From the NCBI RefSeq assembly GCF_001427225.1, contig NZ_LMFH01000006.1:124001-188000 (forward strand): DNA of 64,000 bases, written 5' to 3'. Numbering within the stretch: the first letter of the stretch is position 1; every line of letters begins with the position of its first letter. Of this stretch, positions 12,608 through 24,650 are shown piece after piece. The DNA comes from Lysobacter sp. Root494. Its GTDB lineage: Bacteria; Pseudomonadota; Gammaproteobacteria; Xanthomonadales; Xanthomonadaceae. The position numbers and the translations under genes were made by a program. The notes beneath the pieces were generated by a model, which was not told the origin of the DNA, did no database searches, and saw nothing but the letters and a program-made list of their open reading frames with translations.

Positions 12608-13762
12608 TCATGGCAAGGCAACGGCGTGTCGTTGCCGCTCGGGCTGCATCGGTTGGGCGGGCGCTTCAGCAGGCGATTGCAGTTGCTGCGAGCTGGTTTC
12701 GATCGACTGCGCCACAGCCTGTCCTTTGTCGATCCCGACGATGCGATGACCGGCACTTTCCAGCGGCCCTTCGACCGCGAACAGCGTGCCGTTTGCACCC
12801 CCGACCACGTGGTCGATGCGGTGTAGCCCACCTTGCTGCGCCTTCACCGCCAGGCTGCCGGCCGCGTTGCGGTATTCGTCCTCGCTGCGGAACCCGAGGG
12901 TTTCCCTGTTGATCCCCTTCAGCCCATTGAGCGCTTCATTGAACAGGCGGTGCTGCGGGTGCGCGGGATTCGCGACGGAGCCATGAGCCGCAAGCTGTTG
13001 TGCTTCGATCACCGAGTCCATGCCGTGGATCGCGATTCCATGCATCAGAGCGCTTCCTGGAATCAGCGATTTCCAGCCACGCACGGGATGTGGGTCCGGA
13101 AGTTCGATCCTGTGACCCAGAGCGTCAGGCATGACGCCGCGGGTAAGCAGATTGTGCTCTTGCAGCGAAGTAACAATTTCGTTTGTCACGCTGTAGTGGC
13201 GAATCTGGCCGTTCCCCATCAATTCGCGCCGTACGGCAACCGTGTCGAAACCGAGATGTTCGATGGTGTTTGTATGAAGCCCCGCCGAGTTGAACGTTAC
13301 TGCGGGTGCAGCAGTTGCCAGAGCGCCTGCAGTAGCCAGCCCGCCACCTAGCGAGTGGCCTGTGAGAACCACGTTGTTACCAAACGCGCGGTGCGTTTTT
13401 CTGGCGAGATCGATAGCTTGTTCGTACTGGACGTCGCGCAGCCCCGCTCCTTGCCGAATATTGTGTTTCCAGTCCTCAGCTTCGTCGCTACCGCGGAAGG
13501 CGAGTACATAGTGGTTATTGCCATCTGTATAAAGTCTCGCCCGAAAACCGGTATGCGAATTTTCCAGATCTGACAGCCGAATTTTGAAGGCAGCAAGCTG
13601 TTCGGCTGCTACTGGTGACCAGTTGTCTATAAGCGAGCCAGATTCTTCGTATGTGTCTGCATTGATTCGTGCCAGAACCGAGTCCATCGGTTGCGGATCG
13701 ACACCTCGAATGGCATCGGCAAATGCATCGTTAGGGTCTGCGTCGGAAGTTCGTGCGCTCAT
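12608..13762 (-). CDS. Putative T4SS antibacterial effector: lipase with XVIPCD
   Basis: A 384-residue protein in two parts. Residues about 30-250 look like a class-3-type lipase/phospholipase: GFRARLY, YVLAFRGSDEAEDW and the nucleophile elbow VVLTGHSLGG (Ser137); a HGIAIHGMD stretch may supply the histidine. Residues about 264-361 match the Xanthomonas VirD4-interacting conserved domain: NPAHPQHRLFNEAL, then GLHRIDHVV, then FAVEG, and a glutamine-rich tail (SSQQLQS, PAQPMQPERQ). In Xanthomonas and relatives this C-terminal domain directs toxins to the antibacterial type IV secretion system. There is no signal peptide, as expected. AAGGA lies upstream of the ATG. An exported ankyrin protein lies 34 bp upstream in the same operon and is the likely immunity protein. 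Effector activity is inferred. Confidence 0.85.
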   Translation of the reverse strand: MSARTSDADPNDAFADAIRGVDPQPMDSVLARINADTYEESGSLIDNWSPVAAEQLAAFKIRLSDLENSHTGFRARLYTDGNNHYVLAFRGSDEAEDWKHNIRQGAGLRDVQYEQAIDLARKTHRAFGNNVVLTGHSLGGGLATAGALATAAPAVTFNSAGLHTNTIEHLGFDTVAVRRELMGNGQIRHYSVTNEIVTSLQEHNLLTRGVMPDALGHRIELPDPHPVRGWKSLIPGSALMHGIAIHGMDSVIEAQQLAAHGSVANPAHPQHRLFNEALNGLKGINRETLGFRSEDEYRNAAGSLAVKAQQGGLHRIDHVVGGANGTLFAVEGPLESAGHRIVGIDKGQAVAQSIETSSQQLQSPAEAPAQPMQPERQRHAVALP

Positions 13763-13796
13763 GTTCTCAATCCTTTGGAACTGGCCTACACGTTGG

Positions 13797-14543
13797 CTAT
13801 TGATGTGGATCGTTAACTGGTATTCCGTGCCGCGTTAGCCACTCACGAACGGAAATTCGGTTGCGCCGCGCGGGCTCATTCAAGAGTTCGGGATCAGCCA
13901 TGAACAGGTAATCCTGGAACGTAGCCGCCTGCGCGTTCGTAGCTCGCGGATTTGCCCCTGATTCAAGCAGGGCACGCGTACGCTCGAAATCATTGACGAG
14001 TGCAGCCTTGTGCAGGGGTGTATCGCCGACGTTATCGGCGATGTTGAGATCGGCTCCGGCTGCGAGCAGCGCCTCAATCTGTGCTGTACGTCGAGCAGCG
14101 ATGGCGATGAAAAGAGGCGTCTGCCCGTCTCGGTTTCGCAAATCTGGCGAAATGCGGCGACCCAGCAGCGCTGTCAGGTATCGCGAGTCCTCTGCCATCG
14201 CAGCGGTATGCATGACGGTGTATCCATCCATGCCTTGATGCGCAGGATCAGCTCCGGCTTCAAGCAGTGAAGTCAGACCAGGCAAGCTGCCGTTGAGGAC
14301 AGCCCATTGCAAAAGGGTGATGCCTTCATCGCCCGTCACTTCGACAGTGCTGGGAGTTGCAAGGCGACTAATTCTGTCTCTATCGCCATCCGCAACTGCT
14401 TTTGCGAGTTCAACAACGCGGGTGTCGGGAAACACTTCGTGCACATCAACCTTGTGCTTCAACAGGTCCTCCTTGGCGCATCCGGGGCCGGCGAGACCGG
14501 CTAGCAGTACGAGAAAAATCTTGCGCAATGCGATGGGTCGCAT
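13797..14543 (-). CDS. Exported ankyrin-repeat protein, probable immunity protein
   Basis: A 248-residue protein with an N-terminal signal (ALRKIFLVLLAGLAG) and Cys22 in GPGC, an imperfect lipobox, so it may be a lipoprotein or a plain periplasmic protein. Residues about 60-210 form roughly four ankyrin repeats: GITLLQWAVLNGSLPGL..LLEAGAD, DGYTVMHTAAM, DGQTPLFIAIAARRTAQIEALLAAGADLN and GDTPLHKAALVNDFERTRALLESGAN. It lies directly upstream of the XVIPCD lipase. Immunity proteins for T4SS effectors are usually exported to the periplasm, where incoming toxin acts, so I infer that it binds and blocks that lipase. The base composition of this pair looks less GC-rich than its neighbours. Confidence 0.8.
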   Translation of the reverse strand: MRPIALRKIFLVLLAGLAGPGCAKEDLLKHKVDVHEVFPDTRVVELAKAVADGDRDRISRLATPSTVEVTGDEGITLLQWAVLNGSLPGLTSLLEAGADPAHQGMDGYTVMHTAAMAEDSRYLTALLGRRISPDLRNRDGQTPLFIAIAARRTAQIEALLAAGADLNIADNVGDTPLHKAALVNDFERTRALLESGANPRATNAQAATFQDYLFMADPELLNEPARRNRISVREWLTRHGIPVNDPHQ

Positions 14544-18386: not shown

Positions 18387-19388
18387 TTACAACCACTTGG
18401 CGCGCTTGAACATCCCGTAGAGCACCACGCAGATCGCGACCATCACCCCGATCAGGATCCAGTAGCTGTAACGGCCGGCCAGTTCGGGCATGTGGGCGAA
18501 GTTCATGCCGTACCAGCTTGCGATCAGTGTCGGTGCGGCCAGCAACGCGGCCCAGGCGCCGAGGCGCTTCACGGTTTCGCCCTGCTGCACAGTTACCAGC
18601 GACAGGTTCACCGTCATCGCCGCCGTGAGCATCTCGCGCAGGGTGTCGGTGGTTTCGTTGAGCCGCACGGTATGGTCGTGAACGTCGCGGAAGTAGAGCT
18701 GGATTTCTTCATCGATCAGCGTCGAACGCGCACGCGCGAGCTGGCCCAGGATGTCCTGCAGCGGCGACACCGCCATGCGCAGGCGGGTGAGTTCGCGCTT
18801 GAGGTCATAGAGCTTGTGTACCGTGTCCCTGCGGAACTCCTCGGAGAAGACGTCCTGCTCGAGTTCGTTCAGTTCATGCGTGAACTCGTCGACGATGGGC
18901 AGGTAGTTGTCGACCGCCATGTCCAGCACGGAGTAGAGCGCCGCTCCCGGACCGTGCCGGAGCAGGTCGGGTTCGCGTTCCATGCGCGCGCGCGCCGGCG
19001 CGTAGCTGCTGGAAGCGCCATGGCGCACCGTGACGAGGTAGCGTGGCCCGACGAAGATATGCGTCTCGCCGAAACGGATGTGGCTGTCGACTGTCTGGGC
19101 GGTATGGATGGCGATGAAGAGCGAATTGCCGTACGCCTCGACCTTGGGCCGCTGGTGCGCGTTATGCGCGTCCTCGACGGCGAGGTCGTGAAGGCCGAAT
19201 TCTTCCTGCAGCTTGTCGAGGATGCTTTCGTCCGGCTCGTACAGGCCGACCCAGACGAAGCTGCCGTCGTCGACCGCGAGCACGTCGCTGATCGCATCGA
19301 GGCTGATGTCGCGGCGTTCGCCGTCGCGGCCGTAGGCCACGCAATTGACGACGCACTGGGGCAGCGTTGGATCCTTCATGCGCGGCAT
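18387..19388 (-). CDS. corA: CorA-type magnesium/cobalt transporter
   Basis: A 333-residue inner-membrane channel for magnesium (also cobalt and nickel). A soluble N-terminal alpha/beta domain is followed by a long helix and two C-terminal membrane helices; the diagnostic YGMNF motif sits at the end of the first helix (IASWYGMNFAHMPEL), and the C-terminus KRAKWL is basic, as in CorA. The ATG at 19388 has GGAAGG four bases upstream; an ATG nine bases later lacks such a site, and the open frame further upstream reads across into the neighbouring region. Not to be confused with CorC, encoded 1.4 kb away. Confidence 0.95.
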   Translation of the reverse strand: MPRMKDPTLPQCVVNCVAYGRDGERRDISLDAISDVLAVDDGSFVWVGLYEPDESILDKLQEEFGLHDLAVEDAHNAHQRPKVEAYGNSLFIAIHTAQTVDSHIRFGETHIFVGPRYLVTVRHGASSSYAPARARMEREPDLLRHGPGAALYSVLDMAVDNYLPIVDEFTHELNELEQDVFSEEFRRDTVHKLYDLKRELTRLRMAVSPLQDILGQLARARSTLIDEEIQLYFRDVHDHTVRLNETTDTLREMLTAAMTVNLSLVTVQQGETVKRLGAWAALLAAPTLIASWYGMNFAHMPELAGRYSYWILIGVMVAICVVLYGMFKRAKWL

Positions 19389-19533
19389 CGTGCCTTCCGC
19401 GGCTTCCGGCAGCAAGCCGCCTTGCGGCTGGTGCCTCGTCCACAAGCTTTGCCTTGTAGCGGAGCATGCCCGGTGCCCTGCGATGATCGCCCGCCCGGGC
19501 GAACGAGCCGGACAGGCTGGCTGCAAACGTTCC

Positions 19534-20772
19534 TCAGCGCGAGGGAGTGCCGCGCCAGAACACCCACGCAACCGCCGCATGAACCGGCAACAGCAATGCG
19601 ATCCAGTGCAGATTGGCTTGCGGCTCGGCACTGACCCATCGTACGAGCAGCCCCGCCACCGCGCACAACGCGATCACTTGCGCAACGCGCGCGGCCCATC
19701 GTCCGGGTGCGCGTCCCCGGATCGTCCGCCACGCGCCCGGCAGCGCGAACCACGCCAGAGGGTTGAGCACGAACAGGTTGTGGTTCGCCCAAGCCATCAC
19801 ATGCGCGGTACCGAACCACAGAAACAGCAGGAGCGCACCGATGAAACCGGCAACCAGCCAGAACGGAAGCAGGATCGCGCCGAGTACGCGCGACCCCGCG
19901 TTGCGTTGGCCCATCCATGCAATGGCAATCGCGATCGCGATGCCCCACAGGCCCCACAACCACCAGCGCAATGCGTGGGCGTTGGGCTCGGGGGCTATGC
20001 GATGGGGCAGGATCTCCTCGCGCTCGTGCACCAGCAGGCGGCCTTCGCCATTCTTTGCTTCGACGAGAATGTCGGCGAGGCGGCGCGGCACGAAGGCCTG
20101 CTCCCACATCGTCATCGGCTGGTCCGCGGCAGGCCCGAGGCCGATGTCGAATCCCAGCCACATCCATGGGGCGGGCGAGGCCAGCCGCAACGCTTCGTCG
20201 CGCCAGCTCAGGCCTTGCGAACGCCCAACCACTTGCTTCTGCAAGCCACCCGCGAGCGCGCGATCGATGGCGTCGCGCACACGCGTCGAGCAGTTGTCCC
20301 GGAAGTAGTCGTAACGATAGAAGGCGTTTTCCGGCCGCGCGTTCTCGGCCAGAGCCGTCGCGATTTCACGCGCCTGCGCGGCTTCGAGATCGAGCCACAA
20401 CACGCTCACGCCGCGGCCTTCCGCGCGATAGAGGACGAGATCGTCCGCATACGGCACGGCGGCGAGGCGATAACGCATGTCGCCGCGAACGAAGCGGCTG
20501 ACGAAGTCCGGTTCGGTCGGATCGAAGAAGCCGAAGTTGTAGGAAATGGTTTCGCCCGTGTCCGGATCAGCCACCAACACCGAATCGTGGCCGAAACGCT
20601 CCCAGAAGATTTCACCGGGCTCCATCATCATGATGCCGATGCGCGGCACGGTTTGCGTGGTCGTGGGAGTTACGGCCGAGGGCTGCGATACAACCGTCGG
20701 CGGCGCGATGTCCGCCTGAGCCAGGGCGGCCATCGGGAAGGCGCAGAGCAGGGCCAGCAGGAGCCACCGCAT
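19534..20772 (-). CDS. DUF4105 (Lnb-type) membrane protein
   Basis: A 412-residue protein with a signal peptide/anchor (RWLLLALLCAFPMAALA), a periplasmic domain, and several C-terminal membrane helices. The periplasmic domain is DUF4105: MMMEPGEIFWERFGHDSVLV with His62, and YDYFRDNCSTRVRDAID with Cys161, the conserved His and Cys of the family. DUF4105 includes Lnb, recently linked to N-acylation of lipoproteins in Bacteroides. In E. coli the gene after corC is lnt, which does that job; here DUF4105 takes the place. An alternative ATG at 20829 would overlap the corC end by 8 bases and add 19 residues. Family assignment is firm; acyltransferase activity is inference. Confidence 0.85.
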   Translation of the reverse strand: MRWLLLALLCAFPMAALAQADIAPPTVVSQPSAVTPTTTQTVPRIGIMMMEPGEIFWERFGHDSVLVADPDTGETISYNFGFFDPTEPDFVSRFVRGDMRYRLAAVPYADDLVLYRAEGRGVSVLWLDLEAAQAREIATALAENARPENAFYRYDYFRDNCSTRVRDAIDRALAGGLQKQVVGRSQGLSWRDEALRLASPAPWMWLGFDIGLGPAADQPMTMWEQAFVPRRLADILVEAKNGEGRLLVHEREEILPHRIAPEPNAHALRWWLWGLWGIAIAIAIAWMGQRNAGSRVLGAILLPFWLVAGFIGALLLFLWFGTAHVMAWANHNLFVLNPLAWFALPGAWRTIRGRAPGRWAARVAQVIALCAVAGLLVRWVSAEPQANLHWIALLLPVHAAVAWVFWRGTPSR

Positions 20773-20821
20773 CACCGCGTTCGCCCTTCTCCGCGCGGCG
20801 GCGGGGAAGGGGAGGGTGTCG

Positions 20822-21709
20822 TTACGCATCGCCGAGCACGTCGACGTGAAAAGCGTGCACGCGCCGTGCATCGGCGGCAGAAACACGGAACACGAAACGG
20901 CCCAGCGCGAGCTCCTCGCCGGATTCCGGCAGATGCCCGATCGCCGCCGTTACCAGGCCGCCGATCGTGTCGTATTCGTCGTCGTCGAAGTTGGCATCGA
21001 AGCGCTCGTTGAAGTCGGCGATAGGCGTGAGCGCATCGACCACGAACAGGCCATCGGCCTGCGCGCGCATCAGGGCCTGCGGGTCCTCGGCTTCGTCATG
21101 TTCGTCATCGATGTCACCGACGATCTGCTCCAGCACGTCCTCGATCGTGACCAGGCCGGCCACGCCGCCGTGCTCGTCGATCACGATCGCCATGTGGTTG
21201 CGCGACTGGCGGAACTCGCGCAGCAGCACGTTGAGGCGCTTGGATTCGGGGATCAGCACGGCCGGCCGCAGCAGCGAGTGGATGCTGGCGGGGCCGTTGT
21301 CGGCAACGACGCCGCGTAGAAGGTCCTTGGCCAGCAGGATGCCGAGCACCTCGTCCTTGTCCTCGCCGTGCACCGGGAAGCGCGAGTGGCCGGATTCGAC
21401 CACGCGCTTCATCAGCTGCAGCAGCGATTCGTCGGCGGGCAGGGCAACCATCTGTGCGCGGGGGATCATCACGTCGCCGACGGTGAGGTCGGACACGGCG
21501 ATCGCGCCTTCCATCATTCGCAGGGTGTCGGCGGCAATCAGGCCGTCGGCCTGGGCATCGCGCAGCAGCTCGACCAGATCCTCGCGGGTACTGGGCTCGC
21601 CGGACAGCATCGTGCTGATGCGTTCCAGCCAGCCACGCCGGCGCTCCTGATGGCGTTCCTGGAGGCGGTCCTGGTAATCCTGGGGGGTACTACTGTCGTC
21701 CTCGGACAT
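20822..21709 (-). CDS. corC: CorC (YbeX) CBS-domain protein
   Basis: A 295-residue cytoplasmic protein with a pair of CBS domains (VGDVMIPRAQMVALP, GHSRFPVHGEDKDEVLGILLAKDLL; then the VIDEHGGVAGLVTIEDVLEQIVGDI signature) and a C-terminal CorC/HlyC domain with FDDDEYDTIGGLV and LPESGEEL. The family is associated with magnesium/cobalt efflux and with ribosome maturation. It has no N-terminal membrane domain, as in YbeX. It lies in the phoH-ybeY-corC locus, but a histone-like gene of opposite strand separates it from ybeY; downstream it is closely followed by the DUF4105 gene. Confidence 0.95.
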   Translation of the reverse strand: MSEDDSSTPQDYQDRLQERHQERRRGWLERISTMLSGEPSTREDLVELLRDAQADGLIAADTLRMMEGAIAVSDLTVGDVMIPRAQMVALPADESLLQLMKRVVESGHSRFPVHGEDKDEVLGILLAKDLLRGVVADNGPASIHSLLRPAVLIPESKRLNVLLREFRQSRNHMAIVIDEHGGVAGLVTIEDVLEQIVGDIDDEHDEAEDPQALMRAQADGLFVVDALTPIADFNERFDANFDDDEYDTIGGLVTAAIGHLPESGEELALGRFVFRVSAADARRVHAFHVDVLGDA

Positions 21710-21867: not shown

Positions 21868-22569
21868 ATGCCCGAGAAAAGCACAATCCGGCGCGCGCAG
21901 CAGGACAGACGCGAAGGCAAGGCACCCAGCACCCAGGCTGGCGAATTTGTCCACGAGGAAATCGACCACATCCGCGAAGGCAAGCACGGCGCGCGTTCGA
22001 CCAAGCAGGCGATCGCGATCGGCCTGTCCAAGGCGCGGCGCGCGGGCGTCGACCTGCCGCCGCCGAAGAAGGGCGAGGCTTCCGAAGAGACGCGACGCAA
22101 GGCCGAGCGTGATGTCGAGGCGGGCACTGGACGGAAACGGGCTTCGAAGAAGACCGCGGCGAAGAAGGCCGCTCCGCGGAAGGCGGCTTCGAAGAAGAGC
22201 CCCGCCACGAAGAAGAGCGCCACCAGGAAGACCGCTGCGAAGAAATCGACTGCGCGTAAGGCCCCGGCCCGGAAGAGCGCACCTCGCAAGAGCGCAAGCA
22301 AGCGAGCGGCCCCGTCGAAGACCCGCTCGCGCGCAACCACCAAGGCGCTCAAGCGCGAAGGCCGCTCCGCGGCGAGCCGCTCGGCACTGTCGAAGCAGGC
22401 GAAAACAGCGGCTCGCAAACGCACCGCTTCTGATCGGTCGGCGGCTGCCAGGAAGGCTGTACGGACGAAGGGTGCGGAAGCCCGTTCCGAAGCCGCACGC
22501 AAGGCGGCCCGTACGCGAGCGCGGCACGAAGGCCGTACCCGGCACAACGGAGCCGCAGCTCACCCCTGA
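21868..22569 (+). CDS. Histone H1-like lysine/alanine-rich protein with DUF6496-type N-terminus
   Basis: A 233-residue, very basic protein. Residues 1-75 form a conserved head (AQQDRREGKAPSTQAGEFVHEEI, IREGKHGARSTKQAIAIGLSKARRAGV, LPPPKKGE) of the DUF6496 type. The rest is a repetitive K/A/R/S tail (AAKKAAPRKAASKKS, KSAPRKSASKRAAP) resembling histone H1 C-terminal tails and AlgP. Such proteins are thought to bind DNA and compact the nucleoid. It lies opposite in strand to ybeY and corC and so interrupts that locus. The tail length in such proteins often varies between strains because of repeats. Cellular role is inferred from composition only. Confidence 0.85.
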   Translation: MPEKSTIRRAQQDRREGKAPSTQAGEFVHEEIDHIREGKHGARSTKQAIAIGLSKARRAGVDLPPPKKGEASEETRRKAERDVEAGTGRKRASKKTAAKKAAPRKAASKKSPATKKSATRKTAAKKSTARKAPARKSAPRKSASKRAAPSKTRSRATTKALKREGRSAASRSALSKQAKTAARKRTASDRSAAARKAVRTKGAEARSEAARKAARTRARHEGRTRHNGAAAHP

Positions 22570-22757: not shown

Positions 22758-23240
22758 TCAGGCGATGACGTAAGGATCCTCGATCCCCAAGCCCGCCAGG
22801 ATCTCGCGCTCCAGCTGCTCCATGCAGATCGCGTCGGCTTCGTTCTCGTGGTCCCAGCCGAGCAGGTGCAGGGCGCCGTGCACGGTCAGATGCGCGTAAT
22901 GGTCGACGATCGACTTCTTCTGCTCCTTGGCTTCCCGCGCTACCACGGGGGCGCAGATCACCAGGTCGCCCAGCAGCGGCAGCTTCACGCCATCGGGCAG
23001 GCCGTCGGGTAATTCCGCCGGAAAGCTCAGCACGTTGGTCGCGTAGTCCTTGCCGCGGTAGTGCCGGTTGAGCGCCCGTGCTTCCTTGGTGCCGACGATG
23101 CGGACCGCAAGGTCAGCCTCGCGGATCCGGCTGTGCAGCGCGGCCGCCACCCACTTGCGGAAACTCACGGCGGACGGAACGCCGGTGCGCGGCACGGCGT
23201 AGGTAACGGTGACATCGAGACGAACCGGGCCGACGGTCAT
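22758..23240 (-). CDS. ybeY: Endoribonuclease YbeY
   Basis: A 160-residue metal-dependent endoribonuclease that takes part in 16S rRNA 3'-end maturation and ribosome quality control. The zinc-binding signature HGxLHLxGxDH is present as VHGALHLLGWDHENEAD, preceded by RGKDYATNVLSFP. The ATG at 23240 gives the normal length; AGGAC lies nine bases upstream. The frame remains open further upstream, into the end of phoH. It follows phoH by 40 bases in the same operon, the usual arrangement. Confidence 0.96.
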   Translation of the reverse strand: MTVGPVRLDVTVTYAVPRTGVPSAVSFRKWVAAALHSRIREADLAVRIVGTKEARALNRHYRGKDYATNVLSFPAELPDGLPDGVKLPLLGDLVICAPVVAREAKEQKKSIVDHYAHLTVHGALHLLGWDHENEADAICMEQLEREILAGLGIEDPYVIA

Positions 23241-23280
23241 GCTGGGAAGTCCTGTCGAAAAGTAATGAGGGAACCCTGGC

Positions 23281-24267
23281 TCAGGAAGCCGGCCCGGTCT
23301 GCGCATCCGTGGCATCGCGCGCATCGTAGGCATTGACGATGCGCGCGACCAGCGGATGGCGGACGACGTCGCGCGATTCGAAGAAGGTGAAGCTGATTCC
23401 GTTGACGTTGCGCAGTACCTCGAGCGCGTCCTTCAACCCCGACTTCTGGTGTTTGGGAAGGTCGATCTGGGTCATGTCGCCGGTCACCACGGCTGTGCTG
23501 CCGAAGCCGATGCGGGTCAGGAACATCTTCATCTGCTCGATCGTGGTGTTCTGCGCTTCGTCGAGGATCACATAGGCGTCGTTAAGCGTGCGTCCGCGCA
23601 TGTAGGCCAGCGGCGCGATCTCGATGACGTTTTTCTCGAGCAGCTTCACCACCTTTTCCACGCCCAACATCTCGTACAGCGCGTCGTAGAGCGGACGCAG
23701 GTACGGATCGACTTTCTGGGTGAGATCGCCAGGCAGGAAGCCGAGCTTCTCGCCGGCTTCCACCGCCGGCCGTACGAGGATCAGGCGTTGAACGCGCGAC
23801 TCATTCAGCGCTTCGACCGCCATCGCGACGGCGAGGAACGTCTTGCCCGTGCCCGCAGGACCGATGCCGAAATTGATGTCGTGGGTGGCGATCGCGTGCA
23901 GGTACCTGGCCTGGTTCGCGCCGCGCGCGCGCAGGGTGCCGCGCTTGACCCGGATGGTGACTTCCTGCGGTTCGATGTCGTCGGCGACGGTTTCGTCCGC
24001 GTCGTATTCGGTGAGGTGCAGGTGAATGTCGGGCTCGGTCAGTGTCGTGTCGCCCGCTTCGCTCCACAGCTCGCGCAGCAGCCGTTCGGCCTTGTTGACC
24101 GAGGTGTCCGGACCATCGACACGGAACACATTGCCGCGATTGGCGATCTCCACGCCGAGGCGCAATTCGATCATGCGCAGATGGCTGTCGAAGGGGCCGG
24201 TGAGGTTGGCCAGGCGCTCGGCCTCGGGTGGATCGAGGGCGAATTCGGAAACGGTGCGTGAGGGCAT
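23281..24267 (-). CDS. phoH: PhoH-like ATPase (YbeZ)
   Basis: A 328-residue cytoplasmic P-loop ATPase of the PhoH/YbeZ type, which works with YbeY in RNA metabolism. The N-terminal KH-like segment (RLGVEIANRGNVFRVDG) is followed by the Walker A motif GPAGTGKTFLA, then RPAVEAGEKLGFLPGD, the Walker B region YVILDEAQNTT and VVTGDMTQIDLP. I chose the ATG at 24267; a GTG at 24318 would add 17 residues. Normally miaB lies close upstream; here about 6 kb of other genes intervene. Confidence 0.95.
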   Translation of the reverse strand: MPSRTVSEFALDPPEAERLANLTGPFDSHLRMIELRLGVEIANRGNVFRVDGPDTSVNKAERLLRELWSEAGDTTLTEPDIHLHLTEYDADETVADDIEPQEVTIRVKRGTLRARGANQARYLHAIATHDINFGIGPAGTGKTFLAVAMAVEALNESRVQRLILVRPAVEAGEKLGFLPGDLTQKVDPYLRPLYDALYEMLGVEKVVKLLEKNVIEIAPLAYMRGRTLNDAYVILDEAQNTTIEQMKMFLTRIGFGSTAVVTGDMTQIDLPKHQKSGLKDALEVLRNVNGISFTFFESRDVVRHPLVARIVNAYDARDATDAQTGPAS

Positions 24268-24650
24268 CTGGGCTGTCAGGGTGGGGCGCCTAGGCAGAGG
24301 GGAAGCTTGCGCCTGCACCAGCGTTTTCGCAAAGCCGGAGTGATCGACACGTCCGCGCTGAGTAGCGTGTTGCAGTACGACTGCCGACGTCGAGTGTCGC
24401 GTGCGCCAAGCGGCTGTGGACCTCCGAAATCACTACGCATGGATGCGGGTGAGAGCGTTGTGATTCCCGCAGGTGACCGCGATGCGCTGATGCGAAGTGC
24501 CTGGTCGCCTGGTTGGTGATCGGCGCCTCATGCGCGGGTACCGGCCGGTCCTGCGCGGTATGACGGATCACGTCCCGTCAGCGTGCGCGTCGGACGCCGT
24601 TTGTCGGATGCCCCTTGCAAATAATTGATTGAACAATTAATTAGTCCTTC
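24268..24650. other. Intergenic region between divergent phoH and tetR
   Basis: 383 bases without a convincing gene; short open frames lack family features. It must hold the promoters of both phoH and the TetR gene. The last 50 bases are strikingly AT-rich compared with the rest and contain the palindrome listed separately. Confidence 0.6.
24622..24639. promoter_or_regulatory. Candidate TetR operator
   Basis: Inverted repeat TAATTG-N6-CAATTA in an AT-rich island, twelve bases before the start of the TetR gene. The location and symmetry suit autoregulation of the regulator and its efflux operon. No known matching consensus was compared. Confidence 0.55.

Follow-up and report, generated by a model that had tools for sequence, protein, structure and literature searches.

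The Lnt enzyme of Escherichia coli has a nitrilase fold and a Glu-Lys-Cys triad, and its gene, lnt, is essential in that organism. For Staphylococcus aureus a non-Lnt solution to lipoprotein N-acylation is reported (PMC7387801). This system, LnsA/LnsB, is made up of two genes at separate places, and it is likened to the gene discussed here by description, not by sequence. A third enzyme is described for Bacteroides, whose DUF4105 protein is reported to be the lipoprotein N-acyltransferase Lnb (PMC12994826), for which lipoprotein N-acylation was reported (PMC12994826; PMC11694511). Here we analysed a stretch of 64,000 nucleotides from the genome of Lysobacter sp. Root494 (the window), in which a gene for a DUF4105 membrane protein directly follows corC (ybeX). 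Its product is very probably a lipoprotein N-acyltransferase of the Lnb type, which in the Lysobacterales/Xanthomonadales (hereafter, the order) took the place of Lnt at the corC locus itself, a case of non-orthologous displacement.

A 2026 study (PMC12994826) groups YiiX, TseH and DUF4105 as permuted NlpC/P60 proteins, notes that LRAT transfers acyl chains from phospholipids to other acceptors, and reports three genomic contexts in which Lnt has repeatedly displaced DUF4105 proteins. The same source places Tox-Act1 of Salmonella in a clade sister to DUF4105 and describes a conserved His/Cys pair in it; unlike Lnb, Tox-Act1 is a secreted toxin with phospholipase activity, and it is compared here by description, not by sequence. 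The terms 'Xanthomon', 'Lysobacter' and 'corC' are absent from the main text of the study, figures aside, and the corC loci of the order may be one of its three contexts. Within the accessible portion of the open-licence full-text literature we found no statement that Xanthomonadales use Lnb, and for Xanthomonas campestris B100 a 2023 report states that no Lnt was found and that diacyl anchors were modelled (PMC10368991). The Lnb family and the idea of displacement are already in print; added here, as far as we have seen, are the order-wide extent, the mutual exclusion of the two genes and a disagreement with the assumed diacyl anchors.

The window protein shares with Bacteroides Lnb both domains in the same order. 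A first-pass annotation of the window had assigned it to DUF4105, and this assignment was borne out: the family is now named Lnb_N (PF13387) and is matched with 62.7 bits (Pfam cut-off 22.2), together with the Lnb transmembrane domain 5TMH_Lnb (PF25221; 33.7 bits, cut-off 25.2). The NCBIfam model for lipoprotein N-acyltransferase Lnb, NF051878, matches with 169 bits, residues 53-378 being collinear with positions 20-347 of the 394 in the profile; the likeness to Bacteroides Lnb was thus judged by profile, not by alignment with a Bacteroides sequence. With E. coli Lnt (TIGR00546; PF20154 and PF00795) the window protein has the genomic slot in common and, by inference, the reaction, whereas neither LNT_N nor CN_hydrolase is matched in it (Pfam, E <= 0.01) and a permuted papain fold with His and Cys is predicted instead. 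In contrast to Bacteroides Lnb, the window gene is gammaproteobacterial, lies in the corC slot of lnt and starts inside the end of corC: its ATG (20829) is located within the 3' end of corC, whose stop codon is at 20824-20822, so that the two genes overlap by 8 nt. These coordinates and the Pfam domains confirm the earlier claim that corC is followed directly by the DUF4105 gene.

Among 49 orthologues spread over the order and including the window protein, PF13387 is matched by all 49 and PF25221 by 47 (E <= 0.001 in both cases), and NF051878 by all 49. Sixteen residues of their alignment are invariant, among them Gly80-His81, Asn179-Cys180 and Arg185, and in the membrane part His343, Asn349 and Pro357. 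A His and a Cys in the style of permuted NlpC/P60 proteins, as conserved in Bacteroides Lnb, are therefore present in 49 of 49 sequences as His81 and Cys180. The first-pass annotation had recognised both residues, as His62 and Cys161, a numbering that is right if counted from the internal ATG at 20772 and not from the ATG at 20829.

An AlphaFold2 model based on 35 sequences (mean pLDDT 85.6, pTM 0.77) predicts an N-terminal helix (residues 10-35), a mixed alpha/beta domain (approximately 60-280) and five long helices (289-426). For residues 58-277 of this model VIA-align ranked YiiX first (Z 10.9, 158 residues, 3.8 A) and TseH, a type VI secretion system effector, next (Z 10.6, 150 residues, 3.4 A). 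TseH is also the best solved match of the predicted model in Foldseek (E 0.016, probability 1.00), and a sequence search with the window protein gave no solved relative (best E 0.2). As modelled, the alpha/beta domain resembles the permuted NlpC/P60 fold of the YiiX/TseH/LRAT type. The likeness to YiiX and TseH is confined to this domain; their solved chains comprise about 180 residues and lack the five-helix membrane domain, and TseH is an antibacterial effector.

It had been proposed from the sequence of the window that Lnb might replace or supplement Lnt in this lineage, with a genome search for lnt as the check. The Root494 assembly (G000; 3.44 Mb, listed as 100% complete) contains no match to LNT_N (PF20154), and for this genome 'replaces' is the alternative that fits; the protein thus shares with Bacteroides Lnb its occurrence where lnt is missing. 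The two preceding enzymes of the pathway are found over their cut-offs (lgt with 239.7 bits, lspA with 132.9 bits); with these two standard and LNT_N without a match, the third step is missing unless the Lnb-type gene performs it. The single TIGR00546 match in the genome (C5:512735) reaches 22 bits against a cut-off of 132.9 and was rejected as Lnt, being a 265-aa stand-alone amidase (PRK10438, 285 bits, cut-off 249). We also rejected an lnt gene hidden by incomplete assembly, given the listed completeness of G000 and the lack of LNT_N matches in 156 of 200 genomes of the order, G000 among them. A second DUF4105 protein on contig C5 (L042:1900-3723) was dismissed as Lnb; it combines DUF7844 with Lnb_N, has no 5TMH_Lnb and is not matched by NF051878. 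Root494 has two Lnb_N matches in all, and for many further genomes of its family the number is two to four.

A window-type Lnb protein is encoded in 98 of the 101 genomes of our order sample, and at 88 of these 98 loci corC is found directly upstream, that is, with less than 450 nt between the corC stop and the first aligned Lnb residue (L238, for example, with CorC at 2025-2774 and Lnb from 2946). This synteny count covers the 101-genome sample, not the 200-genome sample used for the domain searches. At five further loci corC is located 0.5-1.4 kb upstream of lnb (G082, G055, G028, G090, G095), at one the upstream sequence is too short to judge (G068), and in four genomes, all of genus g45, corC was not found within 2.8-3.1 kb upstream of lnb (G050, G060, G065, G100; L083, L253, L258, L261). 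No Lnt was detected in the stretch analysed around any of the 98 loci. Named relatives were taken from the best 80 of 567 confirmed ones, nearly all of one family (26 Stenotrophomonas, 15 Xanthomonas, 13 Lysobacter, 12 Luteimonas, 8 Pseudoxanthomonas and 6 others). It is from these closest relatives that we take the sampled order to be the Lysobacterales/Xanthomonadales. At all 80 loci of this set corC precedes lnb on the same strand (at 78 within 450 nt), corA is downstream at 74, and no Lnt was found in the stretch around any of the 80. Since linkage is seen at 88 of 98 order loci and at all 80 named ones, the adjacency of corC and lnb is not due to chance. A second, diverged Lnb-type copy occurs in one genome (L095, G037:C240; E 3e-30), and corC was not seen next to this copy.

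The three genomes of the order sample without a window-type Lnb (G006, G016, G018) each carry lnt after corC, and a corC-adjacent lnt and an Lnb gene were never found in the same genome of this sample. In G006 and G016, which belong to family f6, lnt directly follows corC, and the two genomes give the strongest LNT_N matches of the 200-genome sample (116-117 bits). Lnb_N, a search that counts other DUF4105 proteins too, is matched in 196 of the 200 genomes; in the fourth negative genome, G083, corC is followed by a fragment of Lnb where the contig ends. We do not lean on G018 as evidence of exclusion, since its CorC is divergent (28% identical to the window CorC, on a branch of about 8 changes per column in the CorC tree) and its locus looks foreign, with the order miaB-phoH-ybeY-corC-lnt-metK (L045; miaB and metK were assigned by reading open reading frames, ORFs). 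Because its CorC is so divergent, we suspect from its sequence that G018 is a misfiled genome foreign to the order; the gene order is reminiscent of Alphaproteobacteria. A search for 16S (RF00177) gave matches in three of nine genomes only, and none in G018 or G000.

Outside the order the picture is reversed. The class sample comprised 276 genomes, four from the order and 272 others. The Lnb profile A1 (E <= 1e-10) matched all four order genomes and none of the 272 others, whereas LNT_N (E <= 1e-5) matched none of the four and 259 of the 272; among the 13 LNT_N-negative genomes outside the order three have a size of 0.3-0.4 Mb. In the phylum sample, profile A1 (E <= 1e-6) matched eight of 299 genomes, all of them in the order, and NF051878 (E <= 1e-10) matched the identical eight. 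Twenty outgroup lnt loci were selected for the length of their contigs; at 16 of them lnt comes directly after corC, and the other four (L222, L224, L230, L231) showed no corC. The slot behind corC is thus the usual lnt slot, filled by another gene in the order. Fisher tests gave 1e-66 for the order-versus-class counts and 6e-6 for the exclusion within the order, values which merely describe the contrast because the relatedness of the genomes is ignored and the second value also counts G018.

In a CorC tree rooted on class outgroups, the lnt-bearing family f6 is placed at an unresolved base, and constraining the Lnb rows to one clade is not rejected (approximately unbiased test, p 0.181); two outgroup rows of this tree, L228 and L229, fall on the wrong side, on a long branch. 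The CorC tree without outgroups, as drawn, has f6 inside the order. A single gain of Lnb after the split of f6 would be allowed by the constraint test, which is not proof of it. No donor of lnb was found outside the order in the phylum samples; of other phyla, the analysis covered control genomes only.

The mechanism we propose starts from what the analysis shows: the sequence with its domains and its conserved His and Cys, the fold predicted for it, the slot of the gene and a distribution that is exclusive within the samples. Topology, acyl donor, thioester, substrate and product are what we infer. Lgt and then LspA would yield a diacylglyceryl-Cys lipoprotein, the presumed substrate of the Lnb-type enzyme. 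The five helices would hold the permuted NlpC/P60 domain on the outer side of the inner membrane. Cys180, activated by His81, would accept a phospholipid acyl chain in thioester linkage, and the chain would then be transferred to the alpha-amino group of Cys in the lipoprotein. A triacylated lipoprotein would result and enter the Lol pathway. Our findings suggest three chains on the lipoproteins of the order, where two have been assumed so far.

Several observations weigh against an N-acyltransferase in the lnt slot. The 169 bits of the window protein are below the curated equivalog cut-off of NF051878, 550 bits, which is reached by the control Bacteroides ihuae and by none of the 299 genomes of the phylum sample, and we therefore claim the protein as a full-length family member only, not as a strict equivalog. 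Foldseek found no solved match below E 0.001 for the predicted model. The class and phylum searches with profile A1 scored at most six first-look candidates per genome, so that a miss is possible, although the NF051878 search agrees with them. Mass spectrometry of lipoproteins from the order did not turn up in the accessible part of the literature searched. In Root494, moreover, one protein only passes the LolC/E cut-off (443.5 bits). A bacterium that has just one LolF-type protein can do without Lnt, so that N-acylation need not be essential in Root494. Some of these points would equally be expected if the protein acted on lipoproteins or phospholipids without being an N-acyltransferase, for example as a phospholipase, deacylase or acyl-shifting enzyme, and lipoproteins stayed diacylated. 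The permuted NlpC/P60 relatives do include the phospholipase toxin Tox-Act1 and other lipid-acting enzymes, and the score below the Lnb equivalog cut-off, the single LolC/E-family protein and the diacyl anchors modelled for the Lnt-less X. campestris B100 (Furlanetto and Divne 2023, PMC10368991) would all be compatible with such an activity. The near-universal presence in the lnt slot, the two-domain Lnb architecture and the exclusion with corC-adjacent lnt fit the same job as Lnt better, and we regard a different lipid-directed activity as unlikely.

The very tight linkage to corC could also mean that the gene has an unrelated role connected with corC, for instance in membrane homeostasis, and that its place is a coincidence of operon order. 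If the gene were merely linked to corC, however, one would not expect it to be missing precisely where lnt occurs, and genus g45 has kept lnb though no corC was found nearby, which makes this explanation highly improbable. There is, finally, the possibility that a diverged Lnt elsewhere in the genome does the job and Lnb merely supplements it. LNT_N is matched in 44 of the 200 order genomes (two of f6, G018 and 41 others), and the 41 others have an Lnb_N match as well, which speaks against a simple replacement. We inspected the LNT_N loci of seven of these 41 genomes (L005-L011, with longer stretches L044, L101, L102 and L103 for four). In six of them (L005, L007-L011, L044, L101, L103) long accessory proteins are encoded in open frames of about 820-920 aa, and the 818-aa protein of G189 passes TIGR00546 (202 bits, cut-off 132.9); the seventh genome, G186 (L006, L102), gave no Lnt match by blastp. 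Yet corC was not found in the stretches around any of the seven loci, and six of the seven have Cys-Leu-Asp where all 20 outgroup Lnt sequences have Cys-(Tyr/Phe)-Glu. Within Root494's own family LNT_N is matched in 5 of 54 genomes and coexists with Lnb_N, so that the accessory proteins are not the general solution of the order; they may supplement Lnb in those 41 genomes. For Root494, which is among the many order genomes without LNT_N, a diverged Lnt fails as an explanation unless there is an Lnt that lacks any recognisable LNT_N domain, and for the order as a whole we consider it extremely improbable. Taken together, we think it likely that the order lost Lnt early, that Lnb, an unrelated thiol enzyme in the same slot, N-acylates its lipoproteins, which are then triacylated, that the diacyl model for Xanthomonas is wrong, and that f6 represents the state before the swap.

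The features of the locus are listed in Table 1. On the minus strand the gene order is phoH/ybeZ, ybeY, corC, lnb-type gene, corA (Pfam on window ORFs), which needs one correction: about 1 kb separates ybeY and corC and contains an ORF on the opposite strand (21868-22569). The product of this plus-strand ORF is rich in Lys, Ala and Arg and histone H1-like, its match to HC2 (28 bits) being below the cut-off of 40. The listed corA ORF overlaps lnb because the longest start was taken.

Table 1. Coordinates of the lnb-type gene, its predicted domains and its neighbours in the window.
Feature	Position	Strand	Remarks
lnb-type gene (431-aa membrane protein)	19534..20829	-	ATG 20829; alternative in-frame ATG 20772; NF051878 match
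Lnb_N periplasmic domain, residues 67-198	20236..20631	-	PF13387; predicted fold like YiiX and TseH
His81 codon, proposed catalytic His	20587..20589	-	invariant in 49/49 aligned orthologues, window included; 58/58 in wider alignment
Cys180 codon (YDYF..NCST), proposed acyl-carrying nucleophile	20290..20292	-	invariant in 49/49, window included; 58/58 in wider alignment
Five C-terminal helices, presumed transmembrane, residues 289-426	19552..19965	-	AlphaFold2; PF25221; invariant His343, Asn349, Pro357
corC/ybeX	20822..21709	-	PF03471 and CBS domains; 8-nt overlap with lnb start
ybeY	22758..23333	-	PF02130
phoH/ybeZ	23281..24318	-	PF02562
corA, downstream neighbour of lnb	18387..19631	-	PF01544

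Elsewhere in the window, a gene at 12608-14543 on the minus strand encodes an X-Tfes/XVIPCD C-terminal domain (PF20410, 80 bits) together with a lipase-like alpha/beta-hydrolase part, and it is adjoined by an ankyrin-repeat gene whose N-terminus reads as a lipobox. Judged from their sequences, the two look like an antibacterial type IV secretion effector and its immunity lipoprotein. If so, the immunity lipoprotein would itself be a substrate of the lipoprotein N-acylation pathway.

With the Lnb-type gene, a candidate is named for a step that a published study could not find in X. campestris (PMC10368991), and the diacyl assumption becomes a question which can be answered by simple mass spectrometry. 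The order would provide an example of the in-place replacement, across an entire order, of a gene essential in E. coli by one of unrelated fold, with one family keeping the older gene. Most members of the order are expected to lack Lnt, which matters for Lnt as a drug target; the named Stenotrophomonas and Xanthomonas were judged at the corC locus only. If our reading is true, lipoproteins of the order would be triacylated by a route untouched by Lnt inhibitors.

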